Shown: positions 10,581 through 61,471 of the stretch, in pieces | Numbering within the stretch: the stretch's first letter is position 1 | Layout of the letters: every line of letters begins with the position of its first letter | Source of the DNA: Timema cristinae | Lineage: Eukaryota; Arthropoda; Insecta; Phasmatodea; Timematidae | Assembly (NCBI GenBank): GCA_039000515.1 | Contig: JBCFYV010000001.1 | Coordinates: 34,197,604-34,261,603, forward strand | Length of the DNA stretch: 64,000 nt | Direction of reading: 5' to 3' | Made by a program: the position numbers and the translations under genes | Notes under the pieces: generated by a model | What the model was told of the DNA's origin: nothing | Database searches by the model: none | What the model saw: the letters and a program-made list of their open reading frames with translations, nothing else

Positions 10581-10882
10581 GTATTATTATTACTATTATT
10601 ATTAACACCCTGTATTACTACCCGTTTGGGTTATACACACTTACGCTAATGTGAAATGGTAGGGTGATTGTGAGATGGAATGGAGGACCTACAGTTTAAC
10701 GTGGAATCCGAACCACGGTGGAGGCCTGGCATTCCCCATATTCACATTCATTGTGATTAATACACGTCCTGTCAGAGGTGAAGGGTTTGGCAAGCAGATA
10801 AATCTCTGCCGGGACCGAGGATTGAACCCAGGACTCCCAGCACATAAGTCTGACACCTTACCCCTAGACCACCAGGTTACCC
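10581..10882 (-). repeat. SINE family A copy, long subfamily
   Basis: ATT tail, shared 3' module, and the body including 'gtgattaatacacgtcctg', the segment deleted in the short subfamily. The tRNA-like head complement ends 'ccctagaccaccaggttacc'. Translation of this repeat in either strand gives spurious 60-90 codon frames. Confidence 0.9.
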
Positions 10883-16388: not shown

Positions 16389-16706
16389 GTATTACAAATT
16401 ATCATTATTATTAGCACCGCGTCTTACTACCCATTCGGGTTATACGCACTTACGCTAATGTGTAATGGTAGGGTAATTGTGAGATTAAATGGAGGACCTA
16501 CAGTTTAACGTGGAATCCGAACCACGGTAGAGGCCTGGCATTCCCCACATTCATAAGTTGTGATTAATACACGTCTTGTCAGAGGTTAAGGAAGGGTTTG
16601 GCAATCAGATAAATCCGTGTCGGGATCGAGGATTGAATCCCACACCCTGATTACAGAAGTCCGACACCTTGCCCCTAGACCACCAGGTCACCTGTATTAC
16701 AAATTA
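16389..16706 (-). repeat. SINE family A copy with 13-bp TSD
   Basis: The SINE body (16402-16693) is flanked by perfect GTATTACAAATTA duplications at 16389-16401 and 16694-16706. It is a long-subfamily copy with an intact tRNA-like head and shared 3' module. The perfect duplication implies recent target-primed integration. Confidence 0.95.
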
Positions 16707-20492: not shown

Positions 20493-20785
20493 TTTTTACT
20501 AAACTTGGGTGACCTGGTGGTCTAGGGGTAAGGTGTCGGACTTCTATGCTGGCGGCCGGGGTTCAATCCTCGGTCCCGGCACAGATTTATCTGATTACCA
20601 AACCCTTCCTTCACCTCTGACAAGACGTGTATTAATCACAACTTGTGAATGTGAGGAATGCCAGGCCTCCACCGTGGTTCGGATTCCACGTTAAACTGTA
20701 GGTCCTCCATTTCATCTCACAATCACCCTACCATTACACATTAGCGTAAGTGCGTATAACCCGAACGGGTAGTAAGACGCGGTGC

Positions 20786-20816
<31 letters not shown>

Positions 20817-20828
20817 TTTACTAAACTT
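20493..20828 (+). repeat. SINE family A copy, complete, with TSD
   Basis: The tRNA-like head begins 'ggtgacctggtggtctaggg' with B box 'ggttcaatcctcgg', then the body and 3' module and (AAT)n at about 20788-20815. TTTTACTAAACTT-like direct repeats flank it. It is close to the consensus of the long subfamily. Confidence 0.95.
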
Positions 20829-23496: not shown

Positions 23497-23536
<40 letters not shown>

Positions 23537-23860
23537 GCACCGCGTCTTACTACCCGTTTGGGTTATACGCACTTACGCTAATGTGTAATGGTAGGGTGAT
23601 TGTGAGATGAAATGAAGGACCTACAGTTTAACGTGGAATCCGAACCACGGTGGCGGCCTGGCATTCCACACATTCGCAAGATGTCTTGTCAGAGGTGTAG
23701 GAAGGATAGACAGAAAATGTACAAGTTAGAGGAGAAGAATGAAAGGAACTAAAGAAGGAATAACAGTGGAAGGATTTTACATTTTATTAAATCTACCAGG
23801 CTACAGGCTGGACACCGTTGATGATGTTGAATATGATGGTTAATCTTACAGATCCATTTA
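23420..23860 (+). pseudogene. LINE tail relic split by a SINE
   Basis: With the SINE at 23498-23704 removed, the flanking sequence reads, with stops, like a LINE ORF2 tail ('RKRPQGRPIKRW…ERIDRK', then a Lys/Arg-rich stretch). The duplicated GATAGACAGAA at the SINE borders lies within it. Assignment rests on the short GRP.KRW motif and is moderate. Confidence 0.5.
23487..23715 (-). repeat. 5'-truncated SINE family A copy with TSD
   Basis: The SINE (23498-23704) is flanked by perfect GATAGACAGAA at 23487-23497 and 23705-23715. It ends in the middle of the body and lacks the tRNA-like head, as expected from incomplete reverse transcription. It belongs to the short subfamily because the 'gtgattaatacac' segment is missing. 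It starts with ATT repeats. Confidence 0.9.
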
Positions 23861-25304: not shown

Positions 25305-25418
25305 ACAACCCGCACGATCAAAGACACTACTCTCTCGATATACTAGACTGCCGATGACATGGAGAACGTTGTTCGATCCCAGTCGGGTGTGCTGAAGGTG
25401 TTTTTTTCCTTAAATGGT
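25305..25418 (+). repeat. SINE family C, left half of the palindrome's target site
   Basis: Head and B box ('gttcgatcccagtcgggtg') up to 'ccttaaatggt'. The same SINE continues at 31366 with 'aatggtgttccactctatcc'. The hexamer AATGGT (25413-25418) is repeated at 31366-31371. Confidence 0.8.
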
Positions 25419-26660
25419 AGTAGTAAGAGGGCGACTATGTTCAGTTTTACGTCACTGTTATTAAAATAATATTGACAGCGTCTGTGAGTGACGCCAGGCT
25501 TTAGTGACGTCAGTGAGTAAGGTCAGCCCTGACGTCAGCCTGTTGGACGTGTAGGTTGGTATGCTATAGTATTGTGACGTCATCCTGATTGATGTAATGA
25601 CTGCAGGTCGTTAATTATTCAAAATATGGTGACGTTTTATTGGGTCAGTCCGCATATGGACGTCACATTAGATTTGGGTCGTTAATTATTCAAAATATGG
25701 TGACGTTTTATTGGGTCAGCCCTGCCATGTTTTATTGAGTAAGGTCAGCCCTGACGTCAGCCTGTTGGACGTGTAGGTAGGTATGCTATAGTATTGTGAC
25801 GTCATCCTGAAGCCCAGGTTGAATCAGTCGCTAATTATTCCGCTAATTATTCATGATGACGTTTTATTGAGTGTGGTCAGCCTTGGCGTTTTATTGAGTA
25901 AGGTCAGCCCTGCCATGTGACGTCACCCTGTTGGTCAGCCTGTTGTTCTGGACGTCGCTAATTATTGTTGTTATGGACGTGTAGGTAGGTATGCTAGAGA
26001 TATAGTATTGTGACGTCATTCTGATTGTTGTATTGACTGCAGGTCGCTAATTATTCAAAATATGGTGACGTTTTATTGGGTCAGCCCTGCCATGTTTTAT
26101 TGAGTAAGTTAAGCCCTGCCATGTGACGTCAGCCTGTTGTTCTGGACGTGTCGGTAGGTATGCTATAGTATTGTGACGTCATCCTGATTGTTGTATTGAC
26201 TGTTGGTCAGCCTGTGACTATGACGTTTCAAATAATATGACTGTGGTCAGCCTTGCGTCTCAGGTCAGTGACGTCAGCCTGTGGTTCTGAATTATTAAGT
26301 AGCGGTAGGTATGCTAGGGATATAGTGATAGTATTGTGACGTCATCCCGTTCCTGTGACGTTTCAAATAATATGACTGTTGGTCAGCCGTGTGACGTCAG
26401 CCTGACGTTCTGGACGCCCCATTATATTTGAATGTAGGTGTGGATTTTTACGTCACAAATAATATGACTGTTGAGTGACGTCGGGGAAGGTATGGTAGAG
26501 ATATAGTGATAGTATTGTGACGTCATCCTGTGTGACGTTCCGGTTAGTTGGTCAGCGCCAAGATAAAAAAAACTTGTCCGCGACAGAAATTAAGTGTATA
26601 TGAATTCAGTGAGTGAGGTCAGCCTTGGTCAGCCTCGCCGTGTGACGTCAGCCCGCATTT
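25419..26660. repeat. left arm: tandem TGACGTCA-rich units
   Basis: Six imperfect units share a core like 'ggtaggtatgctatagt…attgtgacgtcatcctg', starting near 25551, 25773, 25981, 26149, 26301 and 26481 (spacing about 150-220 bp). Between cores recur 'ggtcagccctg', 'gctaattattcaaaatatgg' and 'gacgttttattg'. At least fourteen GACGTCA heptamers occur, most as the CRE/ATF-like octamer TGACGTCA or close variants. CpG density is far above the surroundings. Confidence 0.9.
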
Positions 26661-26770
26661 GGATGTCACAGCACTTGACCGAGATTCGAACCTCGATCTC
26701 CACGCCCCCCGAGCTCAACACGACTAGCGCGTTAGCCAACTACGCCCCCGAGGAGGGTAGTAAGAAATAT
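26661..26770 (-). repeat. SINE family B head fragment in left arm
   Basis: 'tgaccgagattcgaacctcg', 'ctcaacacgactagcgcgtt' and 'agccaactacgcccccgagg' are the complement of the family B tRNA-like head. The mirror copy is at about 30015-30125. The body and 3' module are absent here. Confidence 0.8.
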
Positions 26771-27439
26771 AAATGTGCGTATTACCACTCGAGTTTAGGA
26801 TATCAATTTATTATCACAAATAGATTGGGATAACTCAGAAGGAACGCTTCAATGATGTATGGCTTCAATGCCGCTCTGAGCCAGCAACTGTAATAATAAC
26901 GTATGAGACTATGGTGTAATTAAAATATGTGTATGGTAGTCTGTGACGTAAGAAATTCTGATCAAATATTGTTTTAAAACACCAAGAGGCAATACCGAGC
27001 CAAGATTGTTTAGTGAAAAAATACTGTAAAGCGGCTAAAGAATTTTTATAATCTGGAATTTTTTATATTTAAAACATAAATATGGACATGACTGATTTGG
27101 ACATATTTAGTCTTGTTCATTAAAAATACATTTAAAAAAAAAAGGAATAATGTGTGATTGAAACACTTAGGTTAAATTGCTGCCAATATTTATGGTAGCC
27201 CTCGAAAAAGTGTAATTAATCAAACGTTAGCATTCTTATACTTTGGTGAATGGTGATAGGGTATATTTAAATTAATTTATCTCTTCCTTTTAACCTATGA
27301 TACACATTTTAAATCACTTATATCAACTTCTGATTCAATCATGGAGTGCAAATAAAATATTAAATAGATATATGTTGACAAGAAAAGAAAACCTGCTCTA
27401 TCACGTGGTTAAGTCTGAGTTTCATTATTGGTTTAATTA
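26771..27439. other. left arm, non-repetitive segment
   Basis: AT-rich with no recognisable gene; mirrored at about 29346-30014. Contains a 10-A run that matches the opposite arm exactly in length. Confidence 0.7.
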
Positions 27440-27605
27440 TTTATCGCCGCATCTTACTAACCATTTGGATTATACGCTCAAGTACTAACTACGTTATGGG
27501 TTAGGAATGGGGAATGTTGAATTTAGAGGAAGTGAACCAGCATTTGCGAGGAAGGAGAGTGGAAAACCATTTAAAACAAACCACTCCAGTTCACCTAACT
27601 AAGAT
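27440..27605 (-). repeat. SINE C-like copy in left arm
   Basis: 'cgccgcatcttactaaccat' (3' module) through 'agtgaaccagcatttgcgag' to 'ccactccagttcacctaact'. The head is lost. The mirror copy is at about 29180-29345. Confidence 0.8.
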
Positions 27606-27827
27606 TTGAAGCATATACATCTTCTCATTTAGAGTCATATTATTTAGTTCTAAAATTAAACTTAATCTCCACTTTGTAAAACGTAATAAAACTTATACAA
27701 AACTAAGCCGTTTTCTAAACATTCACAAAGTTACAATAAATGTTAATAAACATACCATTTTGAGTGAGAAATTACACAAAATTAGTGTTGATACAAGCTC
27801 TAAAGAGTTAAAAGCGCCCCAATAATA

Positions 27828-28073
27828 TTATACATATGTACTGGAAAGTAGATAGGAAACCACTTTCACAAAAGCATTTTCTTCCTTTCCTTCCCCTTCC
27901 ACTTGCCGTGCCTGTATGACGTAGCACTTCAACGTAAAATTGAATAATATAGTATCACAACGTTCTTCAGATAAAGAGTGAATATTTATGTTAGGCGCTA
28001 ACAGAAATATGTGATCAATAATCAAGAAAATTACAAATTTAAATAGGTTACACAAAATCTGATATTTTTTCAA
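27828..28073 (-). other. 81-codon open frame in left arm, duplicated in right arm
   Basis: The identical 81-residue frame occurs at 28712-28957 on the plus strand because of the palindrome. The N-terminal third is hydrophobic (…LFKFVIFLIIDHIFLLAP…), followed by a Glu/Gly-rich patch. There is no recognised domain. It may be chance in AT-rich DNA, but exact retention in both arms makes it worth listing. Confidence 0.2.
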
Positions 28074-28215
28074 CTAACATAAAACTTTTAAAAACGTAAT
28101 ATATATAAATTTACACCTGAGTTGACATAACCTATACTTCATAAAAAAAATGCAGACTTTCAATAATAAGCTATGTTTGTGAATGTTATCTAATTGATAT
28201 TTTATTTTTTATTAT

Positions 28216-28570
28216 TTAGCACCGCGTCTTACTGCCCGTTGGGGTTATACGCTTTAGGTACTAATTACACTAATGGATTAAGAATTGGGAAGGTTTAATT
28301 AGAGGAAGTGAACCCGCATTTGCGTGGAGGGAGAGTGGACAACCATTTTGGAAAAACCACCCCCAGTTCACTAGACTGCTAAGGACGGGAGATCGAGGTT
28401 CGAGTCTCACTCGTTTGAACTGGGGTGGTTTTTCCAAAATGGTTGTCCACTCTCCCTCCACGCAAATGCGGGTTCACTTCCTCTAATTAAACCTTCCCAA
28501 TTCTTAATCCATTAGTGTAATTAGTACCTAAAGCGTATAACCCCAACGGGCAGTAAGACGCGGTGCTAAA
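28216..28570. repeat. SINE B at the palindrome centre
   Basis: A plus-strand SINE B lacking its A-box end runs from 28371 through B box 'ggttcgagtctcac', the body and 3' module to about 28570. Its body and tail are mirrored at 28216-28370. The unpaired spacer (28371-28415) is exactly the B-box portion of the tRNA-like head, so the fold-back point lies inside a SINE. Confidence 0.85.
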
Positions 28571-28711
28571 TAATAAAAAATAAAATATCAATTAGATAAC
28601 ATTCACAAACATAGCTTATTATTGAAAGTCTGCATTTTTTTTATGAAGTATAGGTTATGTCAACTCAGGTGTAAATTTATATATATTACGTTTTTAAAAG
28701 TTTTATGTTAG

Positions 28712-28957
28712 TTGAAAAAATATCAGATTTTGTGTAACCTATTTAAATTTGTAATTTTCTTGATTATTGATCACATATTTCTGTTAGCGCCTAACATAAA
28801 TATTCACTCTTTATCTGAAGAACGTTGTGATACTATATTATTCAATTTTACGTTGAAGTGCTACGTCATACAGGCACGGCAAGTGGAAGGGGAAGGAAAG
28901 GAAGAAAATGCTTTTGTGAAAGTGGTTTCCTATCTACTTTCCAGTACATATGTATAA
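28712..28957 (+). other. 81-codon open frame in right arm (mirror copy)
   Basis: Same predicted peptide as 27828-28073 on the other strand. No recognised function. Confidence 0.2.
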
Positions 28958-30125
28958 TATTATTGGGGCGCTTTTAACTCTTTAGAGCTTGTATCAACAC
29001 TAATTTTGTGTAATTTCTCACTCAAAATGGTATGTTTATTAACATTTATTGTAACTTTGTGAATGTTTAGAAAACGGCTTAGTTTTGTATAAGTTTTATT
29101 ACGTTTTACAAAGTGGAGATTAAGTTTAATTTTAGAACTAAATAATATGACTCTAAATGAGAAGATGTATATGCTTCAAATCTTAGTTAGGTGAACTGGA
29201 GTGGTTTGTTTTAAATGGTTTTCCACTCTCCTTCCTCGCAAATGCTGGTTCACTTCCTCTAAATTCAACATTCCCCATTCCTAACCCATAACGTAGTTAG
29301 TACTTGAGCGTATAATCCAAATGGTTAGTAAGATGCGGCGATAAATAATTAAACCAATAATGAAACTCAGACTTAACCACGTGATAGAGCAGGTTTTCTT
29401 TTCTTGTCAACATATATCTATTTAATATTTTATTTGCACTCCATGATTGAATCAGAAGTTGATATAAGTGATTTAAAATGTGTATCATAGGTTAAAAGGA
29501 AGAGATAAATTAATTTAAATATACCCTATCACCATTCACCAAAGTATAAGAATGCTAACGTTTGATTAATTACACTTTTTCGAGGGCTACCATAAATATT
29601 GGCAGCAATTTAACCTAAGTGTTTCAATCACACATTATTCCTTTTTTTTTTAAATGTATTTTTAATGAACAAGACTAAATATGTCCAAATCAGTCATGTC
29701 CATATTTATGTTTTAAATATAAAAAATTCCAGATTATAAAAATTCTTTAGCCGCTTTACAGTATTTTTTCACTAAACAATCTTGGCTCGGTATTGCCTCT
29801 TGGTGTTTTAAAACAATATTTGATCAGAATTTCTTACGTCACAGACTACCATACACATATTTTAATTACACCATAGTCTCATACGTTATTATTACAGTTG
29901 CTGGCTCAGAGCGGCATTGAAGCCATACATCATTGAAGCGTTCCTTCTGAGTTATCCCAATCTATTTGTGATAATAAATTGATATCCTAAACTCGAGTGG
30001 TAATACGCACATTTATATTTCTTACTACCCTCCTCGGGGCGTAGTTGGCTAACGCGCTAGTCGTGTTGAGCTCGGGGGGCGTGGAGATCGAGGTTCGAAT
30101 CTCGGTCAAGTGCTGTGACATCCAA

Positions 30126-31365
30126 ATGCGGGCTGACGTCACACGGCGAGGCTGACCAAGGCTGACCTCACTCACTGAATTCATATACACTTAATTTCTG
30201 TCGCGGACAAGTTTTTTTTATCTTGGCGCTGACCAACTAACCGGAACGTCACACAGGATGACGTCACAATACTATCACTATATCTCTACCATACCTTCCC
30301 CGACGTCACTCAACAGTCATATTATTTGTGACGTAAAAATCCACACCTACATTCAAATATAATGGGGCGTCCAGAACGTCAGGCTGACGTCACACGGCTG
30401 ACCAACAGTCATATTATTTGAAACGTCACAGGAACGGGATGACGTCACAATACTATCACTATATCCCTAGCATACCTACCGCTACTTAATAATTCAGAAC
30501 CACAGGCTGACGTCACTGACCTGAGACGCAAGGCTGACCACAGTCATATTATTTGAAACGTCATAGTCACAGGCTGACCAACAGTCAATACAACAATCAG
30601 GATGACGTCACAATACTATAGCATACCTACCGACACGTCCAGAACAACAGGCTGACGTCACATGGCAGGGCTTAACTTACTCAATAAAACATGGCAGGGC
30701 TGACCCAATAAAACGTCACCATATTTTGAATAATTAGCGACCTGCAGTCAATACAACAATCAGAATGACGTCACAATACTATATCTCTAGCATACCTACC
30801 TACACGTCCATAACAACAATAATTAGCGACGTCCAGAACAACAGGCTGACCAACAGGGTGACGTCACATGGCAGGGCTGACCTTACTCAATAAAACGCCA
30901 AGGCTGACCACACTCAATAAAACGTCATCATGAATAATTAGCGGAATAATTAGCGACTGATTCAACCTGGGCTTCAGGATGACGTCACAATACTATAGCA
31001 TACCTACCTACACGTCCAACAGGCTGACGTCAGGGCTGACCTTACTCAATAAAACATGGCAGGGCTGACCCAATAAAACGTCACCATATTTTGAATAATT
31101 AACGACCCAAATCTAATGTGACGTCCATATGCGGACTGACCCAATAAAACGTCACCATATTTTGAATAATTAACGACCTGCAGTCATTACATCAATCAGG
31201 ATGACGTCACAATACTATAGCATACCAACCTACACGTCCAACAGGCTGACGTCAGGGCTGACCTTACTCACTGACGTCACTAAAGCCTGGCGTCACTCAC
31301 AGACGCTGTCAATATTATTTTAATAACAGTGACGTAAAACTGAACATAGTCGCCCTCTTACTACT
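30126..31365. repeat. right arm: tandem TGACGTCA-rich units (mirror)
   Basis: Reverse complement of 25419-26660, with the same six cores and the same GACGTCA spacing in the segments I compared. Confidence 0.9.
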
Positions 31366-31415
31366 AATGGTGTTCCACTCTATCCACACAAATGTGGCTA
31401 CACTTCCTCTAAAGG
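31366..31415 (+). repeat. SINE family C, right half of the palindrome's target site
   Basis: 'aatggtgttccactctatcc', then 'acaaatgtggctacacttcc'. It continues the SINE broken at 25418. The 3' module is not recognisable beyond 31415. Confidence 0.75.
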
Positions 31416-38886: not shown

Positions 38887-40984
38887 ATGAATCCGCCAAT
38901 TACTTGTAAATCCTTATTTTACATATGGGTGGAAAATTCGAAGAATTCGAGATTCGAAGCCATTTTATCTTTTATTTTGACAGAATTGAACAACTCATCG
39001 TTTTATGAAACTGGTTTAAAAAGTATTAAAGCAACAATAAGGAGTTTTTGTCAAAAAAATTGAAAAGAGATGGGACAAAGTGGCAAGACATCAAGAGCGA
39101 TTCCTGAATGACTATTCATCCTGGCTTCAAGGAGATATTACATTTCCTGTGGTTGTATTTCAAGCTTTCCCAACTACTTCAACACAAGATGGTGCCAATA
39201 ACAGGCCTGATAGCCCTAAAAAGCCTTTTAGTAGTTGTGGTCCTAAGGCTAGATCACTAAAAGTAAAAAGCCTTCTAGACTCAACCAGCCATGATTAACT
39301 GTTGATGGCCACAGAAATTAAATTACGGAAAGAAGGGAAATGGAACTCCGCAGCTATAGTTAAAGAGCTCTGTTTTGCATCTCCAAAAATATGTACAACA
39401 ATACAAAAGGGACGCAAGTTTTTACATCAAAAGCTAGCTTTACTATTTGCCGATCAACACTTGCTTTAATAGTGGATGCCAATCTTTCAACAAGTCAGTA
39501 CAACCTCATACGCCAACAAGCCAATGACTTAAATTGTAAATAATATCCACCTTATTACAAGGTTAAGGAAGCTAAACAGTTATGTTATCCTCCTGGAATT
39601 ACCATAACAGAAACTACAGCCTAAATACCACTCCAATCGCTGATTGACCACACAGTATCACGGTTATGCAACGTTAAACAGATAATGGAGAGTTTGTGTT
39701 TGCCCGAGAATAGTACTCTCAACATAATCATAAAATGGGGTTGCGATGGGGCAGATCAAAATAGATACCGGCAAAAGTTTTTTGAAGAGAATTTTACCGA
39801 TGAAAGTTTATTTAGCATTTCTATGGTACCTATACAGATTTACTCAGGCACTGAGGAATCTAATAAAACCATACTTTGGCAAAATCCCTCTCCATCTTCG
39901 ACCAGACACTGTTACCCCATCAAATTTATATTTGCCAAGGAAACAGTAGACGTGATATCCACAGAGGTTAGGAAAATTGAGAGACAAATTGCAACAATTT
40001 CGTCTTCCCAAATATTTGTTAATGGCACGCATGTTACTGTAAAGTCTAAATTGATATGTTGCATGATAGATGGTAAGGTCTGATATGCAGTCACTTCATG
40101 TGCTTCAACACAACCATGTTACTTGTGTGGAGCTAAACCCAGCGAAATGAACAATGTGAATACAATGTCAAAAAAGGAAGTGAAAAAAGATTTTCTTTTG
40201 GATTATCACCTCTACATTCCTGGATTAGATTATTGGAATATATTCTTAACATTTCTTATCGTTTATAAATAATATCATGGCAAGCTAGAGGATCAGAAAA
40301 GAAACAAAAAGTTGCTGAAAAGAAGAAAGAAGTGCAAGAAATGTTCAAAAATTAGTTGGGTTTGCTTATAGATATGCCTAAACAGAAAACTGGGAACACT
40401 AATAATGGCAACACGGCTTGGAAGTTTTTTAGAAATGTGGAGAAATCTGCAAAAATAACCGAGGTGTATTTAGACCTAATCAAAAGATTTCATGTCATTT
40501 TAGAAAGCTTAAATTGTGGTTTTAAAATAAATGTGGAAAGGTTTGATGCGTACACTAAGGATACGCAAGACATATACCTCAGAGAGTACTCTTGGTATCC
40601 AATGCCCGTAAGTCCTCACAACATATTATTCCATGGAAAGGCTATTATTGCTTCTTGTGTTTTGCCGATTGGACAATTTTCTGAAGAAGCTCAAGAGGCA
40701 AGAAATAAACACAACAAGCAATACAGAGAACTATTTGCAAGAAAAACTTCCAGAATTGATACAAATACTAACTTACTTAATAGGTTACTCATCACCTCAG
40801 ACCCATTTATTGCTAGTTTGCGTGCAACTCCTAAAACTAAACATGGAAAAATCAGTACTGAAGTGTTAAATATATTAGAAACCTCAAGTTAAATAAATCC
40901 AGCGCTAATAAGGGGAAATGATGTTTCAGATGACACATCAGAGGACTTATTAGAAGAGTGTACTGACAGTAGTGAATCCGAATA
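38887..40984 (+). pseudogene. Transib transposase (RAG1-core-like) pseudogene
   Basis: Broken but nearly full-length Transib reading. The N-terminal part starts at 38887 behind a pyrimidine tract and 'ttacag' that could be a splice acceptor, and includes 'RHQERFLNDYSSWLQGDITF'. The core carries 'QSLIDHTVSRLCN', 'IIKWGCDGAD' (Asp codon 39745-39747; RAG1 D600 equivalent), 'LICCMIDGKV' (Asp 40069-40071; D708 equivalent), 'CYLCGA' (zinc-ligand pair, 40117-40128), 'GLSPLHSWIR', 'SWYPMPVSPHNILFHG' and 'SEEAQEARNK' (Glu 40695-40697; E962 equivalent). An acidic tail 'EECTDSSESE' ends at the stop at 40982-40984. In-frame stops lie at 39541, 39622, 40081, 40266, 40353 and 40890, with frameshifts near 39070, 39420 and 40150-40200. 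All three catalytic acidic codons survive. Terminal repeats were not found. Confidence 0.88.
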
Positions 40985-43574: not shown

Positions 43575-43859
43575 AAGTTTTGATAATAATAGTAATAATA
43601 TTTAGCACCACGTCTTACTACCCGTTCGGGTTATACGCTTTAAGTACTAATTACGCTAATGGATTAGGAATTGGGAAGGTTGAATTAGAGGAAGTGAACT
43701 TGCATTTGTGTGGAGGGAGAGTGGAAAACCATTTAGGAAAAACCACCCCCAGTTCACCCAACCGAGATTCGAACCTCGATCTCCCCGTCCTCAGCAGTCG
43801 AGCTCAAAACGACAAGCGCGTTAGCCAACCACGCCACCGAGGCGGGTAAGTTTTGATAA
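43575..43859 (-). repeat. SINE family B copy with 12-bp TSD
   Basis: AAGTTTTGATAA occurs at 43575-43586 and 43848-43859. 3' module, body, B-box complement 'gagattcgaacctcg' and head 'ttagccaaccacgccaccga' are intact. Young copy. Confidence 0.95.
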
Positions 43860-44385: not shown

Positions 44386-44739
44386 TCACATGGGTGATTC
44401 AAACAAGGTAAATAGAAGAAAAATTATGGTAGTGTATGAGCCTAATTATGCTTTATTATTAAATAGTTAATATAGTTTTAATGTAGGCCTAGTTGCTAGA
44501 TAAGTATGTATTTATTTTGATCTAAACTTTCAAAATGATTTAACCAAGATGTAAAACTATGTTCATGGCTAACCTAATTTGAGTAAATAGGAATTTGGTC
44601 CCAACAATTCTTTATCAGAACTATTTTGGCCTCATTCGTAATACTAATTCAACCCCATAAAAACCGCACGAATTCAGCACCATGAACCAACCAAAAATCT
44701 TTCCATCTAATTTTGCACAGACTTAGGTAGGTGTTGTAC

Positions 44740-44937
44740 CTTTTATTAGGTTAGGCTTGTTTTGGTTATGCTCGTGTTGTACCATAGTTTAGGTTAGGCT
44801 TGTTTAGGTTATGCTCGTGTTGTACCATAGTTTAGGTTAGGCTTGTTTAGGTTATGCTGGTGTTGTACCATAGTTTAGGTTAGGCTTGTTTAGGTTATGC
44901 TCGTGTTGTGCCATAGTTTTGGTTAGGATTGTTTTGA
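44740..44937 (+). repeat. 43-bp tandem repeat, TTAGG-rich
   Basis: Four to five units with starts at 44751, 44794, 44837 and 44880, each containing 'ttaggcttgtttaggttatg' and 'ctcgtgttgtaccatagttt'. The units are nearly identical. Confidence 0.93.
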
Positions 44938-45921: not shown

Positions 45922-45952
<31 letters not shown>

Positions 45953-46198
45953 TAGCACCGCGTCTTACTAACCGTTCGGGTTATACGCTTTAAGTACTAA
46001 TTACGCTAATGAATTAGGAATTGGGATGGTTGAATTAAAGGTATTGAACCCGCATTTGCGTGGAGGGAGGGTGGAAAACCATTTAGGAAAACCACCCCCA
46101 GTTAATCCGACCGAGATTAAAACCTCGATCTCCACGTCCTCAGCAGTTGAGCTCAACATGACTAGCGCGTTAGCCAACTACGCCAACGAGGCGGATAG
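45922..46198 (-). repeat. SINE family B copy with ATT tail
   Basis: (ATT)n at 45922-45951, 3' module 'cgcgtcttactaaccgttcg', body, and head 'ttagccaactacgccaacga'. A TSD is not clear. Confidence 0.92.
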
Positions 46199-47230: not shown

Positions 47231-47411
47231 ATGAATCAAATAGCCAAAGCTATTATATATGCTTTTTAGTGAGGATTACTCCATCTAGATATCATATGCT
47301 GAAAAGTGAAAAATGACACCTGGACACGGGAATCGAACCCGGGACCTTTGGCTTAGTACGCCAATGCTCTTACCACTGAGCTATCCAGAATATCTTTGGC
47401 TATTTGATTCA
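47231..47411 (-). repeat. family E tRNA-like unit within an inverted-repeat frame
   Basis: The ends 'tgaatcaaatagccaaag' (about 47232-47249) and its exact complement (about 47394-47411) bracket a tRNA-like sequence. On the minus strand this has 'tagctcagtggtaagagc', an anticodon-arm-like 'ttggcgtactaagccaa' and B box 'gggttcgattcccg'. The acceptor and T stems do not pair fully, and the 7-base loop would carry ACT without the long variable arm of tRNA-Ser, so it is a tRNA-derived repeat and not a gene. Confidence 0.7.
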
Positions 47412-47611: not shown

Positions 47612-47690
47612 CCTGGATAACTCAGTGGTAAGAGCATTGGCGTAGTTAGTCAAAGTTCCTGGGTTCGATTCTCGTGTCTAGGTGTCATTT
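47612..47690 (+). repeat. family E tRNA-like unit
   Basis: 'ataactcagtggtaagagca', 'ttggcgtagttagtcaaag', B box 'gggttcgattctcg', then 'taggtgtcatttttc'. It is in opposite orientation to the copy at 47231 and about 200 bp away. Confidence 0.7.
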
Positions 47691-48035
47691 TTCAATTTTC
47701 AGAATATATATATTTATATACATATATTTGGTATTTTTACTCTACAGATCTTATACAGATTTAACTAAGCATATCTCCTTATCGGTAGACACGCATACTG
47801 GGGCAATGCTCATAAACATTTCAATTTTCACGAGAATGCTATGTAAGCTATTGCATGTACTGTATTTTCAGTCTTTAATACGTCAAATTATTTAATATGC
47901 CACTGTAATTTTAGTTTTGACAAATATTATCAATACCTTTAAAATAACACTAATAAAGCTATCAATTCTGACCACAAAGCAAAATATATGTGCTTTATAA
48001 AACTCCCTCTTATGAAACTTTGATTTTAGTTTTAT
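47691..48035. other. unassigned interval
   Basis: A 73-codon frame at 47674-47895 is unrecognised. No other feature. Confidence 0.4.
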
Positions 48036-50536: not shown

Positions 50537-50689
50537 ATTACATTACGTACATAGTTTTATACAAGACATCTATTAGGTCAAATGAACCTTCATAAGATTT
50601 GGATATTAAACAAAACAATTAATGTTACAAAACCAGTAGCTTGGGAAATATTAATAACACAATATTTAAATTATGTGTTTTTATAATTT

Positions 50690-51104
50690 TGTAATGAAGT
50701 GGATTGGCTAGAACTAGCTCAAGATAGGGATAAGGTGTAATGAAATGGACTGGATAGAACTAGCTCAAGTTAGGGATAGGTTGTAATGAGGTGGACTGGA
50801 TATAACTAGCTCAAGTTAGGGATAGGTTGTAATGAGGTAGACTGGATATAACTAGCTCAAGTTAGGGATAGGTTGTAATGAGGTGGACTGGATATAACTA
50901 GCTCAAGTTAGGGATAGGTTGTAATGAGGTGGACTGGATATAGCTAGCTCAAGTTAGGGATAGGTTGTAATGAGGTAGACTGGATATAACTAGCTCAAGA
51001 GAGGAATATGGTTTAATGAGATGGGCTGGCTAGAACTAGCTCGAGATAAGGATATGTTGTAGTTAGGTGGACTGGATGGAGCTATCTAGAGATAGTGATA
51101 GGTG
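50690..51104 (+). repeat. 46-bp minisatellite, nine units, LINE-tail-like
   Basis: Unit starts fall every 46 bp (50691, 50737, 50783, 50829, 50875, 50921, 50967, 51013, 51059). The consensus contains 'tgtaatgaggtggactggat' and 'actagctcaagttagggata'. In one frame a unit reads 'CNEVDWIELAQVRDRL', the LINE ORF2 tail motif also seen at 36430-36600. The 46-bp period breaks the frame at each unit. Outer units are the most diverged. Confidence 0.93.
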
Positions 51105-59410: not shown

Positions 59411-59691
59411 AATTATAAATAATAATATTTAGCACCGCGTCTTACTACCCGTTCGGGGTTATACGCTTTTAGTACTAATTACGTTAATGGATTTAGGAAT
59501 TGGGAAGGTTGAATTAGAGGAAGTGAACCCGCATTTGCGTGGAGGGAAAGTGGAAAACCATTTAGGAAAAACCACCCCCAGTTCACCCGACCAAGATTCG
59601 AACCTCGATCTCCCCGTCCTCAGCAGTCGAGCTCAACACGACAAGCGCGTTAGCTAACTACGCCACCGAGGTGGGTTATAAATTATAAATA
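59411..59691 (-). repeat. SINE family B copy with 11-bp TSD
   Basis: AATTATAAATA occurs at 59411-59421 and 59681-59691. 3' module, body, B-box complement 'aagattcgaacctcg' and head are intact. Young copy. Confidence 0.95.
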
Positions 59692-61194: not shown

Positions 61195-61471
61195 CGTATT
61201 ACTATAATAATAATATTTAGCACTGCGTCTTACTACCCGTTCGGGTTATACGCTTTAAGTACTAATTACTCTAATGGATTAGGAATTGGGAAGGTTGAAT
61301 TAGAGGTAGTGAACCCACATTTGCGTGGAGGGAGAGTGGAAAACCATTTAGAAAAACCACCCCCAGTTCACCCGACTGAGATTCGAACCTCGATCTCCCC
61401 GTCCTCAGCGGTCGAGCTCAACACGACAAGCGCGTTAGCCAACTACGCCACCGAGGTGGGTCGTATTACTA
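61195..61471 (-). repeat. SINE family B copy nested in SINE C, 10-bp TSD
   Basis: CGTATTACTA occurs at 61195-61204 and 61462-61471. The duplicated target lies in the 3' module of the host SINE. The copy itself is near consensus. Confidence 0.95.

Follow-up and report, generated by a model that had tools for sequence, protein, structure and literature searches.

A near-palindromic insertion with Polinton-type ends and no recognisable genes in an old short interspersed element of Timema cristinae

How a chromosome comes to hold a near-perfect palindrome of almost 6 kb, and what kind of mobile element such a structure might be, is the question raised by a locus in Timema cristinae (GenBank assembly GCA_039000515.1, contig JBCFYV010000001.1). 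The whole stretch analysed, here called the window, is 64,000 nucleotides long (34,197,604 to 34,261,603 of the forward strand), and positions are counted from its first letter. Within it an inserted element of 5,947 bp (25419-31365) is almost certainly a real palindromic insertion. By its ends and its target duplication it resembles a Polinton passenger at the level of sequence, and on balance it seems best explained as a whole as a fold-back passenger with Polinton-type ends that was put in place by a Polinton-type integrase.

Aligned with each other, the two arms (25418-28370 against 28416-31366) show no mismatch over 2,953 columns; the two gaps are of a single base each, both being runs of five against four C, at 26745 and 28364, and a spacer of 45 bp lies at the axis. 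The symmetry extends one base into the target-site duplication because the T that closes its left copy is complementary to the A that opens its right copy. When the whole window was scanned, without gaps, for inverted repeats with partners at most 12 kb apart, the runner-up measured 244 nt at 95% identity (among the 25 longest of 70 pairs), and so a palindrome by chance is not an issue. Long reads are known to give mirror-image artefacts, and that the arms differ only in homopolymer length would suit a hairpin read or a misjoin that mirrored one of them. One would not expect a mirrored read, however, to break off at either end in a 6-bp duplication within an otherwise continuous short interspersed element (SINE), nor to place ACTACT exactly at that duplication, and an assembly artefact seems exceedingly improbable.

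That the 5,947-bp element is an insertion follows from its flanks, since these form a member of a transfer RNA (tRNA)-derived SINE family once they are joined without it. Seventeen of the 21 BLAST rows obtained with the joined flanks cross the junction, at about 70-78% identity to the family, and represent 13 places elsewhere in the window and four SINE pieces inside the element; the other four are two self-hits and two short matches of the left flank. The target is the body of an old SINE, and removal of the insert restores the empty site. AATGGT stands on both sides of the insert; a 5-bp parse of the duplication was rejected, as it would set AATGG against ATGGT. Pairs of AGTAGT and ACTACT lying 50-30,000 bp apart number 172 in the window, and a matching 6-bp flank occurs in one, the palindromic element, where about 0.04 would be expected with equal base frequencies assumed. 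The preliminary description of this locus had reported arms of about 2.95 kb with two one-base differences, a 45-bp spacer, AATGGT on both sides and a SINE that reads through when the insert is left out, all of which the arm alignment and the joined-flank BLAST bear out.

The SINE family itself is frequent in the window, with a length of about 258 bp and apparently more than one head type (for example 43593-43846, 45943-46194, 59418-59675 and 61206-61460). It accounts for 39 BLAST rows in the 64 kb, a count that takes in the query copy and the pieces within the element, and flanking repeats (12 and 10 bp) accompany two of the five full-length copies tested.

Table 1. Parts of the palindromic element and its target duplication, in window positions
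Feature	Position	Strand	Basis or remark
Left target-site duplication, AATGGT	25413-25418	.	Sequence and joined-flank BLAST
Left terminal motif, AGTAGT	25419-25424	+	Sequence; compared with PMC8097293
Left arm	25419-28370	+	Arm alignment
Left-arm outer block	25419-26748	.	1.33 kb; GC 45.1%; internally repetitive; 14 TGACGTCA octamers
Left-arm inner block	26749-28370	.	1.62 kb; GC 31.5%; host-like; two SINE bodies
Spacer at axis	28371-28415	+	Starts at position 45 of a plus-strand SINE
Right arm	28416-31365	-	Arm alignment; outer block 30036-31365
Direct repeat TCTTACTA(C), 8-9 bp	30020-30028 and 31356-31364	+	Mirrored at 25420-25428 and 26757-26765
Right terminal motif, ACTACT	31360-31365	+	Sequence
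Right target-site duplication, AATGGT	31366-31371	.	Sequence and joined-flank BLAST

The ends of the insert point to Polintons, also called Mavericks. A survey of Mavericks in vertebrates (PMC8097293), in the portion consulted, lists (AGT)2//(ACT)2 as the most frequent end motif, with (AG)3//(CT)3 as another, and gives 6-bp target duplications for intact elements; inverted ends AGTAGT//ACTACT and a duplication of that length are what the palindromic element shares with them. According to the same portion, intact vertebrate Mavericks are 12.7-24.6 kb long and contain eight conserved genes, or seven in the case of Xenopus tropicalis, and their terminal repeats span 46-1,447 bp (PMC8097293). The palindromic element, by contrast, measures 5.9 kb, has no recognisable genes and is symmetrical over nearly its whole length, and its perfectly inverted ends belong to arms of about 2.95 kb, which exceed that vertebrate range.

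Duplications of 6 bp are left by other transposon groups too, and the ends might have come from one of these. According to the parts consulted of two accounts, IS3EU (usually), GingerRoot and some long terminal repeat (LTR) elements (3-6 bp) give them (PMC10045372), and Dada duplications are of 6-7 bp (PMC3706591). However the ends of none of these fit AGTAGT//ACTACT. In the same parts IS3EU is given ends TA..TA and GingerRoot TA..TA or occasionally TG..CA (PMC10045372), and Dada-U6 and Dada-U1 are described as having no terminal inverted repeats (PMC3706591). IS3EU and GingerRoot were rejected as the element ends AG..CT, and Dada as the element has perfect inverted ends and a target that is a SINE body and not one of the small RNA genes into which Dada inserts. 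LTR elements end TG..CA, and so were rejected on the end motif. Ends from another 6-bp-duplicating group are quite improbable, and a Polinton-type integrase was quite probably responsible for the insertion.

As to gene content, no stop-to-stop frame of at least 95 amino acids lies wholly inside the element, two such frames straddling its right end. Twenty-one frames of at least 40 amino acids overlap the left arm, the longest wholly inside having 81, and ten of them were scanned against Pfam with none above the cut-off, a coverage that leaves out the other 11 and frameshifted remains. Neither a protein-primed polymerase nor an integrase nor a capsid gene, as expected of Polintons, appeared in the frames scanned. 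Three matches below the cut-off were taken as noise: to the virophage capsid domain MCP_V20_C in frame 27610-27822 (E 0.041; 13.8 bits, cut-off 27), to DUF3923 (E 0.01; 16.3 bits, cut-off 25) and to zf-CCCH (E 0.22; 12 bits, cut-off 20.5). The element is best described as a palindromic variant without recognisable genes and with Polinton-type ends, and its Polinton membership is unproven. The earlier statements that no gene is visible and that the arms exceed the usual length of terminal inverted repeats hold within the frames and the vertebrate range given above. The Polinton-type reading made at the same time is partly supported, in that the full AGTAGT//ACTACT ends, the 6-bp duplication and the differing ends of the rivals checked now stand behind it, while membership as such does not follow.

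The preliminary description was silent on two features that bear on how the palindrome arose, namely that the arms are composite and that the fold lies within a SINE. In each arm an element-like end adjoins old host-like DNA. The GC (guanine plus cytosine) content of the outer block is higher than that of every one of 554 equal-length windows outside the element, and the block is made of overlapping direct repeats. The self-complementary octamer TGACGTCA is present in 14 copies per arm, which together are 28 of the 31 copies in the window; concentrated in the two outer blocks, it has the sequence of the textbook CRE/ATF binding site and might be bound by a transposition or host protein. The GC content of the inner block is well within the host range, 386 of 548 windows being equal or higher. 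The inner edge of the outer block consists of the first 92 or so nucleotides of a tRNA-derived SINE (26672-26757, minus strand, 82.6% identical to one copy), and two SINE bodies follow in the inner block (27438-27610 and 28210-28376, both minus), whose identity with the copy at 59418-59675 is 82% and 91%. Since the SINE pieces differ by 9-18% from that copy, yet the arms have no substitution between them, the arms seem to be old sequence that was recently doubled.

This bears on whether the palindrome itself multiplies, in the manner of foldback elements, and is one of many copies of an established non-autonomous family. Long inverted arms, internal repeats, the lack of a frame of at least 95 amino acids and the clean duplication would all be in keeping with such a family. 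However the old SINE pieces taken with the zero arm substitutions suggest a single recent doubling, and within the window the matches to the arms outside the element are all confined to their SINE parts, so that an established family appears improbable. It would overlap with the fold-back passenger in any case, as the first palindrome of a family still needs a fold-back.

The SINE-headed 1.33-kb outer block is bracketed by the direct repeat TCTTACTA(C), which abuts the 5' end of the SINE and recurs at the element end, and resembles a duplication left by retroposition. There is, however, neither an A-rich nor a TAA tail, and because a (TAA)n tail is missing the outer block as a retroposed SINE-headed unit stays unexplained. 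As the 9-mer GTAGTAAGA the repeat has 21 copies in the window against 0.69 expected, four of the 21 being in the arms, and GTAGTAAGA is present in the 3' part of SINE copies.

The palindrome axis falls within a SINE: the first base of the spacer corresponds to position 45 of a plus-strand copy that extends onward into the right arm (28371-28575), and the left arm carries the same SINE inverted from about position 85. Fold-back inversions in yeast, in the part consulted of one report (PMC7467729), arise through single-strand hairpins in which a stem of 4 bp can suffice and the median loop is 35.5 nt with normal MRE11 and SAE2; by analogy the 45-nt loop at the axis here fits such fold-backs. The symmetry stops at the duplication and the flanking DNA is not mirrored, and so mirroring from the flank side is disfavoured; because both ends look true and the flanks are unmirrored, the palindrome was probably already a unit when it inserted. 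Fold-back, in short, probably preceded insertion.

The reverse order is nevertheless conceivable, if a resident element, its repeats about 1.3 kb long and its middle asymmetric, suffered a break in the chromosome and gap repair copied one side onto the other, so that the inverted repeats grew into the middle. The original target duplication would be kept in such an event, and the outer block has its own GC content and, as in Galileo-type arms, is internally repetitive. Galileo and Foldback-like elements of Drosophila likewise have long, internally repetitive inverted arms, and in the part of the study consulted (PMC3573991) Galileo arms grow both through tandem expansion and through recruitment of internal sequence, for which the authors suggest breaks, structural instability or ectopic recombination as triggers; the first copies found consisted of terminal repeats only. 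However the copying would have to stop no more than 45 bp short of a perfect axis and erase the other side entirely, and we consider gap repair unlikely. Elements of the Foldback and Galileo type have 7-9 bp duplications and P- or Mutator-type ends, Galileo itself having a 7-bp duplication and CA ends, whereas the palindromic element has long internally repetitive inverted arms together with 6 bp and AGT ends. Galileo is also placed in the P superfamily, with repeats of about 0.3-1.2 kb, in the part consulted (PMC3573991), as against arms of about 2.95 kb here.

The fold-back passenger would have been made in two steps. Before insertion, one element end with about 1.6 kb of host-like, SINE-bearing DNA would have folded back at the SINE and then been copied, to give a palindrome with an identical end at both sides; the symmetry, the composite arms and the SINE axis are what such an event would leave. 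The product, a mobile element lacking recognisable genes, would then have been inserted whole by a Polinton/Maverick-like integrase of retroviral type, presumably supplied by another element, with the old SINE target staggered by 6 bp, in agreement with the duplication and the empty site.

Because the ends are Polinton-type, the displaced strand of protein-primed replication is a natural source of the fold-back. The likeliest route, by analogy, may be that a displaced single strand snapped back during such replication with the AGT ends serving as jumping-back sites, which as the specific route we put forward as possible rather than probable. Invertron-type plasmids replicate by protein priming. 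Panhandle-shaped replication intermediates are named for them in the part consulted of one account (PMC1864894), where for pAL2-1 and kalilo such intermediates are proposed to leave long inverted repeats; in those cases the inverted DNA is the mitochondrial sequence at the flanks, the element itself not being inverted, and that part makes no mention of an integrase duplication (PMC1864894). The end repeats of Mavericks have been tied by the authors of the vertebrate survey, again in the portion consulted, to the jumping-back step of protein-primed replication (PMC8097293).

The composite arms also resemble, by analogy, the symmetric recombinants of adenovirus. In the SYREC adenovirus (Deuring, Klotz and Doerfler, about 1981) a viral end with host DNA was reportedly doubled into a palindrome, the genome being linear and protein-primed, but SYREC is said to be a packaged virus-like molecule in cultured cells, whereas the palindromic element is inserted in a chromosome and has a target duplication. 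That the palindromic element is a chromosomal counterpart, a Polinton-type replicon that gained host DNA at one end, snapped back during protein-primed strand displacement into a palindrome whose two functional ends are identical and was then inserted by the integrase of the element, is an idea we regard as less likely than not.

Several observations weigh against the fold-back passenger with Polinton-type ends. The reference end motif is derived from vertebrates and may not be that of arthropod Polintons, and neither a polymerase nor an integrase gene was found in the element, among frames of at least 95 amino acids and the ten frames compared with Pfam. The CpG ratio of the outer block, 0.99, is unexceptional, 75 of the 554 outside windows equalling or exceeding it. 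The identity of the arms is possibly inflated, if polishing mixed reads of both. A comparison by eye of 16 rows (the element, the host SINE and 14 SINE copies of the window) gives about one base at the fold point where the copies agree with the fold-back requirement, so that an ancestral stem is not demonstrated.

Public collections were also searched. The terminal 20-mer and the outer-repeat 19-mer had no exact match in IMG/VR, the terminal 20-mer had none in prokaryote genomes and the left arm had no match among phage records; because all three collections are expected to hold little animal DNA, these blanks say little. The terminal 15-mer matched seven viral contigs, none of which extends by more than one base past the 15, and these were treated as chance. 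A literature search of titles and abstract openings, with few subscription journals and the founding Polinton papers aside, gave no description of a palindromic or gene-free Polinton among the papers listed.

To our knowledge protein-primed replication of Polintons has been deduced from genes and ends, and a palindrome bearing the same Polinton-type end twice, with host-like DNA in its arms, is a by-product that such replication could leave. If snap-back is the correct reading, the element would be a fossil of extrachromosomal, virus-like Polinton replication in an animal germ line, and more such palindromes with random fold points would be indirect evidence for free replicating germ-line molecules. 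It would also provide a route for Polintons to carry host DNA and to plant long hairpin loci able to form double-stranded RNA, and a hairpin of this size could, if transcribed, feed the small-RNA defence of the host.

Elsewhere in the window the plus strand carries what is left of a decayed Transib-type transposase, as two open fragments (39625-40083 and 40356-40892). The first matches the DNA-mediated transposase of solved structure 6pqn, a Transib, at E 1.7e-18 (the same sequence occurring in six entries), and has a weak match to RAG1 below the cut-off; for the second, 43 relatives reach E 1e-3 or better, the 16 named ones being 14 from the spider Araneus ventricosus and two from moths. A tRNA-Ser-like sequence with anticodon ACT (47318-47389, minus) scores above the Rfam tRNA threshold and overlaps an arm at 47294-47388 that has an 89% inverted partner at 47613-47707; it is probably a tRNA-derived repeat rather than a gene. 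A dispersed repeat (16398-16641, 20558-20824, 23498-23684 and 10582-10746) has opposite-orientation copies that are 93-95% identical, and most copies share a stretch with the 3' region of the SINE. Minisatellites occur at 44731-44934 (4.7 copies of a 43-bp unit) and 50689-51077 (8.5 copies of a 46-bp unit).

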